Shown piece after piece: positions 12,704-29,529 of a stretch of 41,511 bases of DNA (position 1 is the first letter of the stretch; every line of letters begins with the position of its first letter). The translations under genes were made by a program, and so were the position numbers. The notes under the pieces are model-generated. The model ran no database searches, was not told the DNA's origin, and saw only the letters and a list, made by a program, of their open reading frames with translations. The DNA lies in IMG/VR virus record IMGVR_UViG_3300022924_000009, positions 1-41,511 of that record, one strand, 5' to 3'. The stretch comes from a virus.

Positions 12704-12899
12704 AAAGTCTGTTTTTATGAAATAAAATTCCAAAAGAAATGTAAACATATAAGATGTAGATATCTACTCCCGTATATTTCTTACATCCTTTTATACTTAT
12801 TCCTATTTGCCATGGACCTGAGAAAATCCATGCATCAAGATATATACTTTCGTCAATCCTATTGAATAAATAAACAAGTCGATTCATTAAATTTCCCAT
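12702..12899 (-). CDS. Small hypothetical protein, 65 aa
   Basis: It starts within the 3' end of the glycosyltransferase gene (13-base overlap) and ends 8 bases before the next start, consistent with a packed operon. The product is rich in Ile, Tyr, Phe and Trp; residues 44-58 (VDIYILYVYISFGIL) could be a short membrane segment or buried strands. The identical 18-bp start context with the next gene supports translation. No family recognised, and a spurious ORF is possible. Confidence 0.45.
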   Translation of the reverse strand: MGNLMNRLVYLFNRIDESIYLDAWIFSGPWQIGISIKGCKKYTGVDIYILYVYISFGILFHKNRL

Positions 12900-13621
12900 G
12901 GGCTTTTTTCTGGATAAAGTTCCTGTAATACATTTTTCATTTCTTCATTGAGGCCAAAATCTCCGACACTGAAAAATAGACGATCCTTTATTTTGTCCCT
13001 GATATGAGGCGCTGACATCGGTTCGTCAATCTTGCAATCTGGCTGGAATACTCCTTCTAAATTCAGTGAGTTTGCGTAAAGGCTTTTGACTACATAACCG
13101 TCAGTTGGCTTATTCCAATCGTAACTATCCATTACCTGAATGAATTTGCTTTTATTGTAGATAATAGGGGTATGTGTGTCAAAGTTGTTTTGATGCACTG
13201 TGCCTGCTTTAACCAGTGCATTATGGCAGTTCATAAGAGCACGTTTGTACCGATCATCCCTGCGCTTCTTTGCGCTGTTTAAAAGAGTTCCTTTATAGTA
13301 GTTAGGTAATGATGGGGCATTCAGCTCTTCAAGCAAGAACATGTCGTCATTCATGAAAAAGAAATTTTCGCTAATGCCTGGTTGCTGGCATGCGAACTTA
13401 ACTTTTTCCATGATGCGGCGTTCCTTAGTGAGCTCCATGTTATCCTGATGAGGAATGTGAATTAATGGACTGAAGTCTGAGAAGTCCAGGAAATCAGGCT
13501 TTGAACCTACGATAATAATTGATCCCACTTCGAATAAATGAGTGGCGACGCTTCGCAGCGAATACTTTAATTCATTATTATGCCACGCTGTTTCGGTGCC
13601 GAGTATGTATACTATGTCCAT
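12887..13621 (-). CDS. Stealth-like capsular polysaccharide phosphotransferase / glycosyltransferase
   Basis: The 244-residue protein shows the layout of the Stealth family: an N-terminal DIVYILGT strand (CR1-like), the ELKYSLRSV...VGSIIIVGSKP region (CR2-like), the acidic FFFMNDDMFL motif (Asn91-Asp92-Asp93) and a later DTHTPIIYNKSKF segment (CR3-like). Stealth proteins are hexose- or hexosamine-1-phosphate transferases that build or decorate surface polysaccharides. It is shorter than many full Stealth proteins. It sits 4 bases after a SAM methyltransferase, so the two may jointly modify a glycan: the host surface, to block other phages, or a virion or DNA glycan. The family call rests on motifs; the substrate is unknown. 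Confidence 0.75.
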   Translation of the reverse strand: MDIVYILGTETAWHNNELKYSLRSVATHLFEVGSIIIVGSKPDFLDFSDFSPLIHIPHQDNMELTKERRIMEKVKFACQQPGISENFFFMNDDMFLLEELNAPSLPNYYKGTLLNSAKKRRDDRYKRALMNCHNALVKAGTVHQNNFDTHTPIIYNKSKFIQVMDSYDWNKPTDGYVVKSLYANSLNLEGVFQPDCKIDEPMSAPHIRDKIKDRLFFSVGDFGLNEEMKNVLQELYPEKSPWEI

Positions 13622-13625
13622 TCGA

Positions 13626-14177
13626 TTAGCTAGTTATAATGTTATGAAAGGGACCTACAAACCAAGAGCCATCCTCAAAAATAGCATCCGGTTTTCCAAA
13701 CAATTCGTCTACTGCTTTTTTAACTCCGTATTTTCCGCTGTTATCGTAATCGTGCCCTGAAATGATTTTGCATTTTGGAGACCAAAAAAGAATGTCTCTT
13801 TTTACTGCTTCATAAGAGTGGTCTGCATCTATGTACACAAGATCGACATCTTTTACCGATGAAAATATTGGATCGTCTGAAGATGCCTTAAATTTGAAAA
13901 CACGGGGGTTGCTTCCGAGTAGTTCATCAAATCTTTTTTCAGCGTTCTGGATATCATCCGGATGATATTTACTACCCGCCCAAGTATCTACGCAGTTAAG
14001 GCTGGCAACATTCAGGATGCTTAAGAACATCATGGCGCTTTCTCCGGCATAGCTACCGAGCTCTACTATGTGCAAGGGGTGACCCTTGGTTTTCTCTCCA
14101 ATAGCAAGACAAAAGTCGTGGAATCCCTTCACCATTGAAGGCTTATCGAATCGCATAAGTTTTTTTGTGTAGGTCAT
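13626..14177 (-). CDS. Class I SAM-dependent methyltransferase
   Basis: The 183-residue protein has the Rossmann methyltransferase signature: motif I VELGSYAGES at residues 38-47, the acidic second strand NCVDTWAG, and VDLVYIDADHSYEAVKRDI, typical of Methyltransf_24/O-methyltransferases that act on sugars and small molecules. There is no target-recognition domain or DPPY/NPPF motif as in DNA methylases, so DNA is an unlikely substrate. It overlaps the preceding small ORF by 4 bases and is followed 4 bases later by a Stealth-like transferase, pointing to glycan modification. Function from motifs; substrate inferred from context. Confidence 0.8.
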   Translation of the reverse strand: MTYTKKLMRFDKPSMVKGFHDFCLAIGEKTKGHPLHIVELGSYAGESAMMFLSILNVASLNCVDTWAGSKYHPDDIQNAEKRFDELLGSNPRVFKFKASSDDPIFSSVKDVDLVYIDADHSYEAVKRDILFWSPKCKIISGHDYDNSGKYGVKKAVDELFGKPDAIFEDGSWFVGPFHNIITS

Positions 14178-18171: not shown

Positions 18172-18405
18172 TTACATTACTTTATAATAAGCGTTCCAAT
18201 AATCATCCATTGTTACAATGGATGCTACTCCTATTAATTCATCTTTTATAGAATCTACTATTTCGCCTGCTTGCCCGCATTCGCTAATCCTTAATACTAG
18301 TTTATCGTCATTATTTGCTATTTCCTTAGCATGAGCAAAATTGTCGGCGTATATCTCTACTTCCGAATTAACTACTAATACTTTTTTGCAGATGCTGTTT
18401 TTCAT
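18172..18405 (-). CDS. 77-aa hypothetical protein, first gene of the leftward arm
   Basis: The in-frame ATG at 18477 lies on the -33 promoter element, so the ATG at 18405 (MKNSICKKVLVV), about 33 bases after the predicted transcription start, is the likely start. The product is soluble and acidic with alternating strands and helices (NFAHAKEIANNDDKLVLRIS). No family recognised. As the promoter-proximal gene it is probably among the first proteins made. A repeat-containing frame continues beyond its stop in another phase (18043-18171), so an ancestral frameshift is possible. Confidence 0.6.
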   Translation of the reverse strand: MKNSICKKVLVVNSEVEIYADNFAHAKEIANNDDKLVLRISECGQAGEIVDSIKDELIGVASIVTMDDYWNAYYKVM

Positions 18406-18444
18406 TTCGTCAGTTGTTTTGTATCCGCTTAGTTGCTGATGATG

Positions 18445-18481
18445 TAAATATACGACTACTTTTGATAATAGATACAAAAAG
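18445..18481 (-). promoter_or_regulatory. Leftward promoter, Bacteroidota type
   Basis: Read on the minus strand: CTTTTTG (18481-18475), a 22-base spacer, then TATATTTA (18452-18445), one base from the TAnnTTTG -7 consensus. The -33 element is inside the left arm of the 29-bp inverted repeat. Transcription should start near 18438, about 33 bases before the ATG at 18405. Confidence 0.65.
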
Positions 18482-18571
18482 TATTAAATATTTTTCACAC
18501 TATATTAATCGCATTGCAAATCAGGTGCTTATAAATAGTTATAAAAATATTTAATACTTTTTGTATCTATT
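18467..18571. promoter_or_regulatory. 29-bp perfect inverted repeat in the divergent control region
   Basis: The left arm (18467-18495) and right arm (18543-18571) are exact reverse complements, separated by 47 bases. Each arm is AT-rich (core GTATTAAATATTTTT) and contains the -33 element of the promoter facing away from the centre, so the two promoters are mirror images with nearly the same spacing (21 and 22 bases). This could be a paired operator or a shared upstream element that balances the two arms. A regulator is not shown; the XRE protein at 15090 is one candidate. Confidence 0.8.
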
Positions 18572-18592
18572 TCGAATTTTTACGTATATTTG
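18558..18592 (+). promoter_or_regulatory. Rightward promoter, Bacteroidota type
   Basis: TTTTTG at 18558-18563, a 21-base spacer, then TATATTTG at 18585-18592, a full match to TAnnTTTG. Transcription should start near 18598, so the first product is the structured RNA and tRNA, followed by the early genes. Confidence 0.75.
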
Positions 18593-18597
18593 TTCAT

Positions 18598-18998
18598 GGC
18601 TAAGGCGTCCCACGGGAAACGATAACCCATAATGAGGTGGCGCAGTTTGCTACTCACCACCTCAGCAGCAAGAAAGCGCAGAAGGCCTTTCGCTATAAGT
18701 TGGAATTTCAAGAGGGTGCCACACACGCTTTGTGATTTTGACTTATAGCAGCGAAATTGAACTACTCCCGCACCTGTTGACAAGACACGGATAGCGTAAT
18801 ACGGATTTATGCTATTGCAGTGAATCCGGCTGTGAAATTCAGCATGCAGAAGGGAGTAGTTCAAGGGAATAAAAATGCGAGAGCGTCCGGCAGGTCCGGC
18901 CTCGCAAAACATTAAGCGCTCAACGATCAGCTCTAATCCGGGTTATCTGGCACCGGGTTCGCTTAATCCTCTGCCGTGTATCCTGGTTGCGGCAGAAT
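18598..18998 (+). ncRNA. Large structured non-coding RNA, about 400 nt, ending at the tRNA
   Basis: No rightward ORF of note occurs here, but long helices follow one another: 18633-18640/18657-18664 (8 bp), 18692-18700/18741-18749 (9 bp), 18757-18769/18852-18864 (13 bp, perfect) enclosing three hairpins that each have a 7-nt loop (18773-18790, 18791-18815 with 9 pairs, 18829-18843), 18876-18881/18901-18906 with an inner CCGG stem, 18911-18918/18960-18967 (8 bp) and 18970-18976/18990-18996 (7 bp). A consensus promoter lies just upstream and a tRNA 3 bases downstream. Large ornate phage RNAs such as GOLLD and ROOL are known beside tRNA genes; whether this belongs to such a family cannot be judged by eye. 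Exact ends are inferred. Confidence 0.65.
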
Positions 18999-18999
18999 G

Positions 19000-19072
19000 G
19001 GGGCTTTAGCTCAGTAGGAAGAGCATCGCACTCATAATGCGACGGTGCATGGTTCGAATCCATGAGGGCCCA
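19000..19072 (+). tRNA. tRNA with CAT anticodon (Met, or Ile if modified)
   Basis: The cloverleaf is clear: D arm GCTC/GAGC with an AGTAGGAA loop; anticodon arm TCGCA/TGCGA with loop CTCATAA (anticodon CAT at 19033-19035); a 5-base variable loop; T arm CATGG/CCATG with loop TTCGAAT; acceptor 3' strand AGGGCCC at 19065-19071. If position 1 is 19000, T8 and A9 are kept but the acceptor has one G/G mismatch; starting at 19001 it pairs fully with wobbles but lacks one linker base. A G-C first pair and no GGG/CCC anticodon stem argue against an initiator. CCA is not encoded. It directly follows the structured RNA and is probably processed from the same transcript. Confidence 0.85.
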
Positions 19073-19098
19073 CAAAATTAATTAACTAATACAACAAC

Positions 19099-19338
19099 AT
19101 GGATAAAGATTTAAAAATACGCTGGAAAGCAATGTGTGACAAGATCAAGGATAGCGGTATGACCAAAACGCACATCCGATCTAAAATAAATGTAGGGCGT
19201 AATGCTCTGCCTTTATACACACAGAAGGCAAAGGGGCACCCTAAGTATCCAAATTATGTTACCGAAAATGTAACAAAGAAACTTGAAAAGTTTTTCACCA
19301 CCCTAAGCAGCGGCAGCGATGAATCCAGCAAAAAATAA
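19099..19338 (+). CDS. 79-aa basic protein, possible small DNA-binding regulator
   Basis: It is the first protein gene of the rightward arm, 26 bases after the tRNA. The product is basic; GMTKTHIRSKINVGRNALPLY (residues about 20-40) looks like a helix-turn-helix, followed by a Lys-rich helix and a Ser-rich tail. It overlaps the next gene by 20 bases. An early transcription factor or nucleic-acid-binding role is inferred from size, charge and place, not from a named family. Confidence 0.6.
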   Translation: MDKDLKIRWKAMCDKIKDSGMTKTHIRSKINVGRNALPLYTQKAKGHPKYPNYVTENVTKKLEKFFTTLSSGSDESSKK

Positions 19339-19630
19339 GATCAAAGCAAAAGACGCAGCCGCCATGCTGAGTTGGCAAGAGCGATGGGAGCTCAGAGTGG
19401 AGTTTGAATCTGACCGGCAAAGTTCCCCATTAAGCTGGAAAAAATGGCTTAATAATACTCACTTAGATATAACAGCAAAGGGAGCCAGGGCCACACTGCT
19501 TGAAGGTGCTATACTGTGGGCTCCATCTAAAAAAGGCCATGATTACTGGCAAAAGAAATTCGACAAATATTTAAACATTCACTTAAACGAACTAAGAACT
19601 GATGAACTCAGCCACCCTAATAACTTCTAA
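19319..19630 (+). CDS. 103-aa hypothetical early protein
   Basis: A soluble helical protein with many Trp and Lys residues (LSWQERWELRVEFESDR at about residues 17-33; a second Trp-rich segment near 40-45). It overlaps both neighbours (20 and 29 bases), consistent with coupled translation in the early operon. No recognised domain. Confidence 0.6.
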   Translation: MNPAKNKIKAKDAAAMLSWQERWELRVEFESDRQSSPLSWKKWLNNTHLDITAKGARATLLEGAILWAPSKKGHDYWQKKFDKYLNIHLNELRTDELSHPNNF

Positions 19631-21734: not shown

Positions 21735-21809
21735 GGTAACCGGCAACCTGCAAAAGCGGAATAAGCACCTGAAGGCATGAGAACCGGATGGAATAATAAA
21801 AAAAGAAAA

Positions 21810-26972: not shown

Positions 26973-29207
26973 ATGAGCGAAATATCATTCTTTAGAAACA
27001 TTTACCACAACGATGAAGGCGACCTCACTACTATACAAGAGTTCCTTGATAAGATCAAATACGGAGTATGGAAAGCAGAGGCGGCAAAGATAGCGGCTAC
27101 TGAAGACATTGACGAGCGGTCAGAACTTAAAAAGCACACGTTGCCTTACGTCACTATATCGGGCAGGTTCGGCAGGAGAAAAAAGGATGATTTAATAAAA
27201 CACTCCGGATTCATCTGCATTGACTTTGATAAGCTTGAAAACGTGGAAGCCAGTTTCAATAAGCTTAAAAACGATCCTTATACTTTTGCCATCTTCCGAT
27301 CGGTCAGCGGCAAGGGCCTTGCCTTGATCGTTAAAATAGACGGCAGGAAGCATTTGGATGCTTACCTGGGCCTTGAAACGTATTACGCCAACAAGTACCA
27401 GGAGATAACTGATCGCAGCTGTAAAGACACTACTAGGCCTAGATTTGTCAGCTACGACCCTGCACTACATCATGAGCCAAATAGTGAGAAATTCACCGCC
27501 TACTTACCCAAAACAGAAACACAAAAGAAATTACCCAGCGTTATTACCGGGCGTAATGACATGGAATTCCTCCTTTCTCAAATCAAGGATAATGGCATAG
27601 ACTTAACCGGCGGTATTTACTTCAGGTACTTGGAAATAGGATTTGCCCTGGCTCATGAATACAGGGAGTCAGGCCGGGAGTATTTCCATTTCATTGCCTC
27701 CTACAGTAATAAATACAATACAGAGGTATGTGACAAACAGTATGACAAGTGTTTGAAGGCAGGAGGCGACGGGGTAACCATTGCAACGCTTCTTTACCAT
27801 GCAAAAAATGCCGGGCTGCAAATCATGTCCCCAGAAACAAAGGAAATCAACACCATTGCCTTGATGGGCCGGAATGCCGGTAGAAGCCTTCAGGATACTA
27901 TAGACCTGCTGAAGGAAATTCACGACATCAGCCCGGAGCGATCGACCGAATTAGTGGGTAAGGTATACAGCTCTGACAAGATCAATGCAGAAAGTAAATT
28001 ATCCACTATTGAAGCCCTTGAGATATTCATACGGGACAACTACACCATCAAACGTAATGAGATTACCCGCTTCATTCAAAACGATGGAATTGACATTGAT
28101 ACCGTATTCATGAACTCGGTATATTTCAGGGCCAGAAAAGAAATTGACGACAAAATCAGGTTTGAGGAAATAGAAAGACTCGTTTATAGTGATCACACAA
28201 AGGATTTCAACCCGATCAAAGAATATTTCCAGGCTATTCCGGAAGATAACCGGACCATAAGCGAAATCATATCAAGTGGTTTTATTAAGCAACTAGCTGA
28301 CTCTATTGAAGTTGACACAGGAGAGGCACACACAGGAAACATTTCATACAAGTACCATTTTATTACTAAATGGATGGTGGGAATAATAGCATCAGTATAT
28401 GGTGAGCACTCGGTGCTTACCCTGGTACTGACCGGAGGGATAGGGACAGGTAAAACTGAATTCTTCCGGAGGCTCCTACCACCTGGTTTAAAACCATACT
28501 ATGCGGAAAGTAAACTTGAAGCCGGGAAAGATGATGAAATACTTATGACTCAGAAACTTATCATTATGGATGATGAGTTTGGGGGTAAAAACAAGCTGGA
28601 ATCAAAACGTTTTAAGGAATTAACCTCTAAGGAGGCCTTTACGCTGCGTGAACCGTACGGACGTAAGAATATTACCCTAAAGAGGCTTTGTGTGCTCTGT
28701 GGCACCTCAAACGTTGAAATGATCCTTTCTGATCCATCAGGTAACAGGCGTATTATCCCAATGAATATTATTTCTATTGATCACGAAAAATACAATGCCG
28801 TTTCAAAGGTGGATCTATTCAATGAAGCGTTCAGGCTGTACCAGTTGGGGTATAACTTCAGGCTTTCCCGTGAGGACATCAACAGCCTCAACGAGCAAAC
28901 GGGGCAATTCGAGCAAAGCAGGAGTGAAAAGGAGCTTTTGGAGTATTACTGCAAGGTTCCAAAGGGATCAGGGTATGAGAATACTGAATTTATACCGCTG
29001 GCTGTGCTTGTGGCCCGGATCAACAAAGTATCTGGATCTAATATTTACGTTCAAAAGATGGGTGAGGAAATGAAGCATGCTGGGTTTAAAAGGGTCAGAA
29101 GGCGTGAAGGAGGGAAACAAGTGTGGGGGTATGATGTCATTTGGTCAACGGAGGCAAAACAGGACGAAACCGATAGATTGGGTCCCTCGTTGTTCTCTCA
29201 GGGGTGA
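26973..29207 (+). CDS. Primase-helicase: VirE N-terminal, PriCT and VirE/SF3 helicase domains
   Basis: The 744-residue protein follows the Bacteroidota VirE-type order. An N-terminal BT4734/VirE_N-like region (about 1-190) with GFICIDFDKL and GKGLALIVK resembles archaeo-eukaryotic primase/RepA-like active sites. A PriCT-like linker (about 200-290) follows. The C-terminal virulence-associated E helicase has Walker A GGIGTGKT (488-495), Walker B LIIMDDE (529-535), CGTSN and GNRRIIPM. It should prime and unwind at the phage origin. An iteron array begins within its last codons (the TGA is part of the first TGAGACCA), strong context for an initiator function. Confidence 0.88.
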   Translation: MSEISFFRNIYHNDEGDLTTIQEFLDKIKYGVWKAEAAKIAATEDIDERSELKKHTLPYVTISGRFGRRKKDDLIKHSGFICIDFDKLENVEASFNKLKNDPYTFAIFRSVSGKGLALIVKIDGRKHLDAYLGLETYYANKYQEITDRSCKDTTRPRFVSYDPALHHEPNSEKFTAYLPKTETQKKLPSVITGRNDMEFLLSQIKDNGIDLTGGIYFRYLEIGFALAHEYRESGREYFHFIASYSNKYNTEVCDKQYDKCLKAGGDGVTIATLLYHAKNAGLQIMSPETKEINTIALMGRNAGRSLQDTIDLLKEIHDISPERSTELVGKVYSSDKINAESKLSTIEALEIFIRDNYTIKRNEITRFIQNDGIDIDTVFMNSVYFRARKEIDDKIRFEEIERLVYSDHTKDFNPIKEYFQAIPEDNRTISEIISSGFIKQLADSIEVDTGEAHTGNISYKYHFITKWMVGIIASVYGEHSVLTLVLTGGIGTGKTEFFRRLLPPGLKPYYAESKLEAGKDDEILMTQKLIIMDDEFGGKNKLESKRFKELTSKEAFTLREPYGRKNITLKRLCVLCGTSNVEMILSDPSGNRRIIPMNIISIDHEKYNAVSKVDLFNEAFRLYQLGYNFRLSREDINSLNEQTGQFEQSRSEKELLEYYCKVPKGSGYENTEFIPLAVLVARINKVSGSNIYVQKMGEEMKHAGFKRVRRREGGKQVWGYDVIWSTEAKQDETDRLGPSLFSQG

Positions 29208-29522
29208 GACCACTGAGACCAGACTGAGACCAGCAAGCGATTTTGCTGGTCTCACCTAAAAATCCAAAATCAAAAACAATAAAGCGTTAACTACTAATAA
29301 TATATATATTAAAGAATATATATATTATTATATAATAGAGAGGGTGAGACCACTGAGACCAGCAGATTGATACAATTTAGTTTAGATTTCAATATTGTTT
29401 ACACAAAAATAAATTTTAACAGTACCTTAAAAATAGAAATAAGTTGAGGCCAAAACTCACTTTGCTGGTCTCACCCTTACTCAGTTGAAAATCAATAAAT
29501 TAACCTTAAAACGCTGAGACCA
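29205..29522. repeat. Iteron array, candidate replication origin
   Basis: Eight copies of TGAGACCA or its complement lie in about 320 non-coding bases: direct at 29205, 29214, 29225, 29345, 29354 and 29515; inverted at 29247 and 29466. A 20-bp block (GGTGAGACCACTGAGACCAG) occurs at 29203 and 29343. The copies at 29225 and 29247 form a 12-bp hairpin stem (TGAGACCAGCAA/TTGCTGGTCTCA). Between the two groups is a very AT-rich palindrome. Repeats around an AT-rich core, directly after a primase-helicase gene, are the classic layout of an iteron-type origin. No ORF is evident. Confidence 0.8.
29295..29330. repeat. AT-only inverted repeat, DNA-unwinding candidate
   Basis: TAATAATATATATATT (29295-29310) and its exact complement (29315-29330) form a 16-bp palindrome around AAAG. 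Only A and T occur in the arms. In an origin this would be the easiest place to melt, or extrude as a cruciform. Confidence 0.8.
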
Positions 29523-29529
29523 GCAACCT

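Follow-up and report, generated by a model that had tools for sequence, protein, structure and literature searches.

A candidate structured RNA of about 400 nucleotides directly ahead of a tRNA at the start of a replication-gene operon in a phage contig

The contig and its divergent promoter region

The window analyzed here is the whole 41,511-base virus record IMGVR_UViG_3300022924_000009. It carries terminase, portal, capsid, and endolysin genes together with a primase that has a BT4734-like domain and whose nearest counterparts belong to phages of Cellulophaga, Nonlabens, and Flavobacterium, which identifies it as a tailed phage that infects Bacteroidota. Leftward genes occupy 12.3-18.5 kb and rightward ones begin at 19.1 kb; the candidate structured RNA region described below lies in between. 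The first protein gene of the rightward operon (19099-19338, + strand, 79 aa) shows weak similarity (31% over 35 aa, E = 0.01) to the gene that opens the matching operon in related phages.

Some further features of the window deserve mention. On the leftward strand, 12887-14177 contains a Stealth CR2-like stretch in a protein (a weak match, below the curated cut-off), with a methyltransferase adjacent; the two are possibly cargo for the modification of surface sugars. The noncoding stretch 29202-29526, behind the primase gene, holds GGTGAGACCA / TGAGACCAGCAA motifs that recur in either orientation, along with an AT-rich palindrome of 16 bp, and strongly folding intergenic DNA occurs at apparently the same place in the related phages L006, L007, L080, L131, and L174. 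This stretch is likely the replication origin. At the right end of the contig (39080-41509) an open frame runs off, at the left end (1-818) a coding stretch begins, and direct joining of the two ends leaves the frames in disagreement; the contig is perhaps permuted and not quite complete.

The initial annotation placed a consensus promoter directly upstream of the RNA, and this promoter is indeed present as TTTG-N21-TATATTTG at 18560-18592 on the + strand, in agreement with the Bacteroidota promoter consensus (PMC7366714), which we used for the matching. The same pattern is matched three times in the contig, with 0.95 matches expected by chance. The usual distance from promoter to start brings the probable transcript start to about 18596-18600, with the promoter 3-7 nt upstream of it. 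An inverted-repeat search also identified a perfect 29-bp repeat, assigned to no strand (18467-18571, with arms at 18467-18495 and 18543-18571), that puts a -33-like TTTTTG into each of two divergent promoters. The leftward promoter of this pair has TATATTTA at the position occupied by TATATTTG in the rightward one, and the repeat may be an operator common to both divergent operons. No terminator-like site was found in 18400-19400, and inspection by eye gave no further promoter from the tRNA up to 19099, where the first gene begins. The gene order suggests that the rightward transcript is an early one.

Fold of the RNA region and the adjoining tRNA

The stretch 18596-18999 had been described as a region of at least nine helices free of protein genes, and both parts of this description are borne out. 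Its sole long ORF encodes 110 aa on the - strand, alongside short ORFs on the + strand, and these would be the substance of any unrecognized or decayed protein gene at this place. The codon score of the 110-aa ORF (-0.10) falls in the range of spurious antisense ORFs, unlike that of the genes of this phage (0.08 to 0.23), and the ORF has no match in Pfam or PHROGs, which makes a protein gene very improbable.

Comparison of the folding energy with that of shuffled sequence had been set beforehand as a test of the RNA, and the energy is clearly lower than that of the shuffles. The + strand of 18596-19000 folds at -152.2 kcal/mol vs a shuffle mean of -121.8 (sd 6.2), which gives z = -4.89 with 0 of 100 shuffles as low; when the tRNA is included, z is -4.98 and the cloverleaf is retained. 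The region is the energy minimum among the 405-nt windows on both strands of the 41.5-kb contig. A lower shuffle z at this window size is found only at the neighboring window 18301, which includes the 29-bp inverted repeat and extends over the initial ~110 nt of the RNA. In windows of 200 nt the region does not stand out (best z = -3.64), and several other intergenic regions are as low or lower, so the folding signal is that of the whole ~400-nt unit. The - strand of the region also folds well (-139.1 kcal/mol, z = -4.2, vs -152.2 kcal/mol and z = -4.9 for the + strand), as inverted repeats would do whatever their purpose. From the predicted energies and the lack of a coding signal, 18596-18999 on the + strand appears to be a good candidate for a real, well-formed structured RNA of about 400 nt that is an orphan in the data searched.

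The predicted fold contains 12 helices of at least 4 pairs, with a mean pair probability of at least 0.9 in the outer stems of P1, P2, H1, H2, H3, H4, H5, and the last hairpin, all on the + strand. Two long-range closing stems, P1 (18603-18607/18960-18964, pair probability 0.95, and 18610-18615/18953-18957) and P2 (18621-18628/18940-18947, mean pair probability 1.00), tie the 5' end of the RNA to its 3' end (18603-18628 with 18940-18964). Hairpin H1 (18633-18664) has an 8-bp outer stem, UGAGGUGG/CCACCUCA, with a mean pair probability of 0.98, and is followed by H2 (18672-18691; GAAAG/CUUUC plus GC/GC; 0.95) and the long hairpin H3 (18692-18749, z = -5.0), which comprises 16 consecutive pairs (18692-18707/18734-18749). 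Four of the pairs in H3 are G-U pairs that turn into mismatches in the opposite-strand RNA, leaving an unbroken helix in the + strand RNA only, and these four pairs favor selection on the + strand RNA.

Domain H4 (18757-18864) is built from a perfect 13-bp stem around two or three hairpins, and the slightly larger stretch 18755-18866 gives z = -6.4. The stem itself (18757-18769/18852-18864) is as first reported, with a mean pair probability of 0.97. The three hairpins with 7-nt loops that were assigned to its interior are only partly reproduced: the 9-pair one is outcompeted and the other two are weak, with probabilities of about 0.5 and 0.64. The 9-pair hairpin (18791-18799/18807-18815, loop UACGGAU) overlaps a competing helix at 18802-18809/18821-18828, which has a probability of 0.97, and forcing the hairpin to form costs 2.9 kcal/mol. 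Its loop bases CGGAU (18802-18806) are complementary to AUCCG (18824-18828), and it is possible for the 9-pair hairpin and this pairing to coexist only as an H-type pseudoknot, which on paper would consist of S1 of 9 bp, a loop of 2 nt, S2 of 5 bp, and a loop of 8 nt. Hairpin H5 (18876-18906, UGCGAG/CUCGCA, mean pair probability 0.96) and the last hairpin (18970-18996, 9 pairs, 0.95) complete the fold. A scan for complementarity between unpaired loops, as a hint of self-assembly, gave nothing beyond one 5-nt match and the possible pseudoknot.

A tRNA on the + strand follows 3-4 nt after the last hairpin, whose end is at 18996; this tRNA starts at 19000 according to Rfam (19000-19072, RF00005, 60.3 bits) or at 19001 according to ARAGORN (19001-19073). 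This confirms the initial placement of a tRNA with a CAT anticodon 3 bases past the last helix. The tRNA has no encoded CCA and is somewhat irregular, with a G.G mismatch in the acceptor if it starts at 19000, base 8 missing if it starts at 19001, and a G in place of the usual pyrimidine before the T stem. It could be decaying, or could be retained as a processing signal. Two more pairs, formed with leader bases (18998-18999 with 19073-19074), can lengthen the acceptor, an extension that might hinder RNase P.

Searches for homologues and comparison with related phages

The families proposed for a covariance search were GOLLD, ROOL, OLE, raiA, group I intron, and tmRNA, and the Rfam scan matched none of them, the tRNA being the only family found; relaxed thresholds (E up to 5) added only weak matches at chance level. 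The models of GOLLD and ROOL do not match at the gathering score or at E up to 5, no Rfam model match was obtained for OLE, raiA, group I or II introns, tmRNA, or RNase P RNA, and ARAGORN gave no tmRNA. The proposal of a divergent GOLLD/ROOL-type RNA or a new RNA class thus holds in part: a structured RNA linked to a tRNA where the replication operon starts is supported by the folding statistics, the promoter, and the missing coding signal; membership in GOLLD or ROOL is rejected by Rfam.

DNA similarity searches of 50,697 phage records and 72,556 plasmids returned matches to the tRNA only, and with the tRNA left out nothing significant appeared in phages. A 20-base exact pattern of the RNA had 0 matches in IMG/VR, where 16- and 17-base patterns hit 22 loci, 0 of them with further similarity or a fitting covariance score; a pattern search with the tRNA led to two contigs, both unrelated. 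The records and genomes behind 43 related loci contained short chance matches only, the best of which, in L093, falls in a long ORF. A covariance model of H3-H4, which is weak as this single sequence was its only source, had no hits in some 2 Mb of loci, nor in Bacteroidota genome samples of 395, 398, 180, and 180. BLAST with the full RNA against Bacteroidota samples of 396 and 395 genomes gave one 27-nt match at chance level. Since no homologue was found in these limited searches, no helix is backed by compensatory changes. A new RNA class is neither shown nor refuted by these searches.

The nearest records by primase (L006, L007, L080, and L030, about 50% identity) have the helicase in common with the contig, two of them also the gene at 21777 and one the exonuclease, and no tRNA is present in the parts of them that were seen. 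In the related phage G002, the matching operon opens with a small gene weakly similar to the contig's first gene (19099-19338); upstream of it are a promoter-like site and a short leader of ordinary folding (z = -1.05), with no tRNA at this place. A structured leader of different sequence was not seen at the same place in the related phages. Judged by this one well-placed relative, the module of RNA and tRNA looks lineage-specific, gained or kept only here, and the short ordinary leader of G002, which has no tRNA, makes the module look like added cargo rather than a required leader.

Possible roles of the RNA

A common transcript, the direct RNA-tRNA junction, and a fold that is complete in itself suggest a precursor that is cut into a free RNA, a tRNA, and an mRNA. 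A transcript started at the promoter at 18560-18592 would cover the RNA, the tRNA, and the operon of replication genes. RNase P would then cut at the 5' end of the tRNA and free the RNA with a 3' end near 18999, while processing behind the tRNA would release the tRNA and the mRNA. The freed RNA, which we infer to be stable, would fold with its 5' and 3' parts joined by long-range stems around a several-armed junction and would act in trans at an early stage of infection, with a host component or the RNA itself as binding partner. What is generally known of RNase P makes release by tRNA processing reasonable, and a tRNA directly behind the RNA offers a standard cleavage site. The computed features of the locus that speak for a noncoding RNA are the more stable + strand, the long-range stems, the promoter upstream, and the lack of a terminator and of a coding signal. 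We give about an even chance to a structured phage RNA of ~400 nt that is freed from the tRNA by RNase P and acts in trans early in infection.

The same position, directly behind the promoter of a long operon and with no terminator before the first gene, would also suit a cis-acting leader that binds RNA polymerase from the nascent transcript and suppresses pausing or termination in a put-like manner, or that tunes operon expression. The put elements of HK022 are likewise structured elements directly behind early phage promoters, and their action is protein-free (PMC9378689). However, put RNAs are about 70 nt long with two stem-loops and no tRNA behind them (PMC9378689), while the RNA here is nearly six times longer and is separated from the genes by a tRNA that must be excised; the comparison fits in position but not in size and architecture. 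G002, moreover, drives a similar operon from its short, ordinary leader. We consider a cis-acting leader fairly unlikely, though it is the chief competitor of the trans-acting RNA.

Less likely again is a long tRNA leader without function, trimmed from the precursor, whose hairpins merely protect it or block ribosomes, or an antisense sponge derived from such a leader. The direct junction with the tRNA agrees with this explanation, as does the fact that the searches of phage, plasmid, IMG/VR, and Bacteroidota genomes showed no conservation, but a closed fold of 400 nt would be unneeded and the folding exceeds both the shuffles and the genome background. Quite improbable, in our view, is an element acting at the DNA level, in which inverted repeats bind proteins or serve in replication and give rise to the RNA fold only incidentally. 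Both strands do fold better than shuffles, and a perfect 29-bp inverted repeat is found in the neighboring divergent promoter region; yet the G-U pairs of the + strand, the long-range nesting, and the + strand bias point to RNA, and the repeats at 29202-29526, behind the primase gene, are a better origin candidate.

For the trans-acting RNA, GOLLD and ROOL set a precedent as large structured RNAs near tRNAs in phages (PMC12286853). The contig offers a setting of the GOLLD type in its phage origin (terminase, portal, and capsid genes) and the tRNA at 19000, and GOLLD env-38 lies downstream of a Met-tRNA (PMC12286853). However, GOLLD is often over 800 nt, while the RNA here is about 400 nt, lies upstream of its tRNA, and has no match to the GOLLD model. 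GOLLD assembles into a 14-chain cage. ROOL, similarly, is a structured phage or prophage RNA near tRNA islands without a known protein partner (PMC12286853). ROOL forms homo-oligomeric assemblies through kissing loops. The RNA here has no covariance-model match and stands beside a single tRNA instead of an island; the complementarity scan gave no evidence of ROOL loop-loop contacts, only the one 5-nt loop match. Another big phage RNA without a protein gene, the large noncoding transcript of ICP1, has been likened in length to GOLLD and ROOL by those who described it, but it is about 800 nt, lies before the lysis genes, and comes from a phage without tRNAs (PMC7567579).

The likeness to GOLLD and ROOL thus survives only as an analogy of setting. 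By this analogy, the RNA might represent a new ornate class in Bacteroidota phages, with a tRNA-linked precursor that releases it as infection begins, a closed multi-arm fold, and a possible pseudoknot, that would assemble or bind a host machine as GOLLD and ROOL may do, an extension that we put forward tentatively and regard as rather unlikely. The role of the RNA, if it is real, may nonetheless be minor, since GOLLD, the precedent known best, was dispensable in a Lactobacillus prophage, according to work cited in PMC7567579.

GOLLD, ROOL, and other large structured phage RNAs are without known function, although some assemble into RNA cages. Deletion, probing, and imaging would be simpler with a smaller RNA like this one, which is linked to a tRNA and preceded by a recognizable promoter in a 41-kb phage. 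If the trans-acting RNA proposed here is real, GOLLD/ROOL-like RNAs would reach the phages of Bacteroidota; if the element is a leader instead, it would offer a candidate for RNA-only control in Bacteroidota, a group in which such elements are, to our knowledge, little studied.
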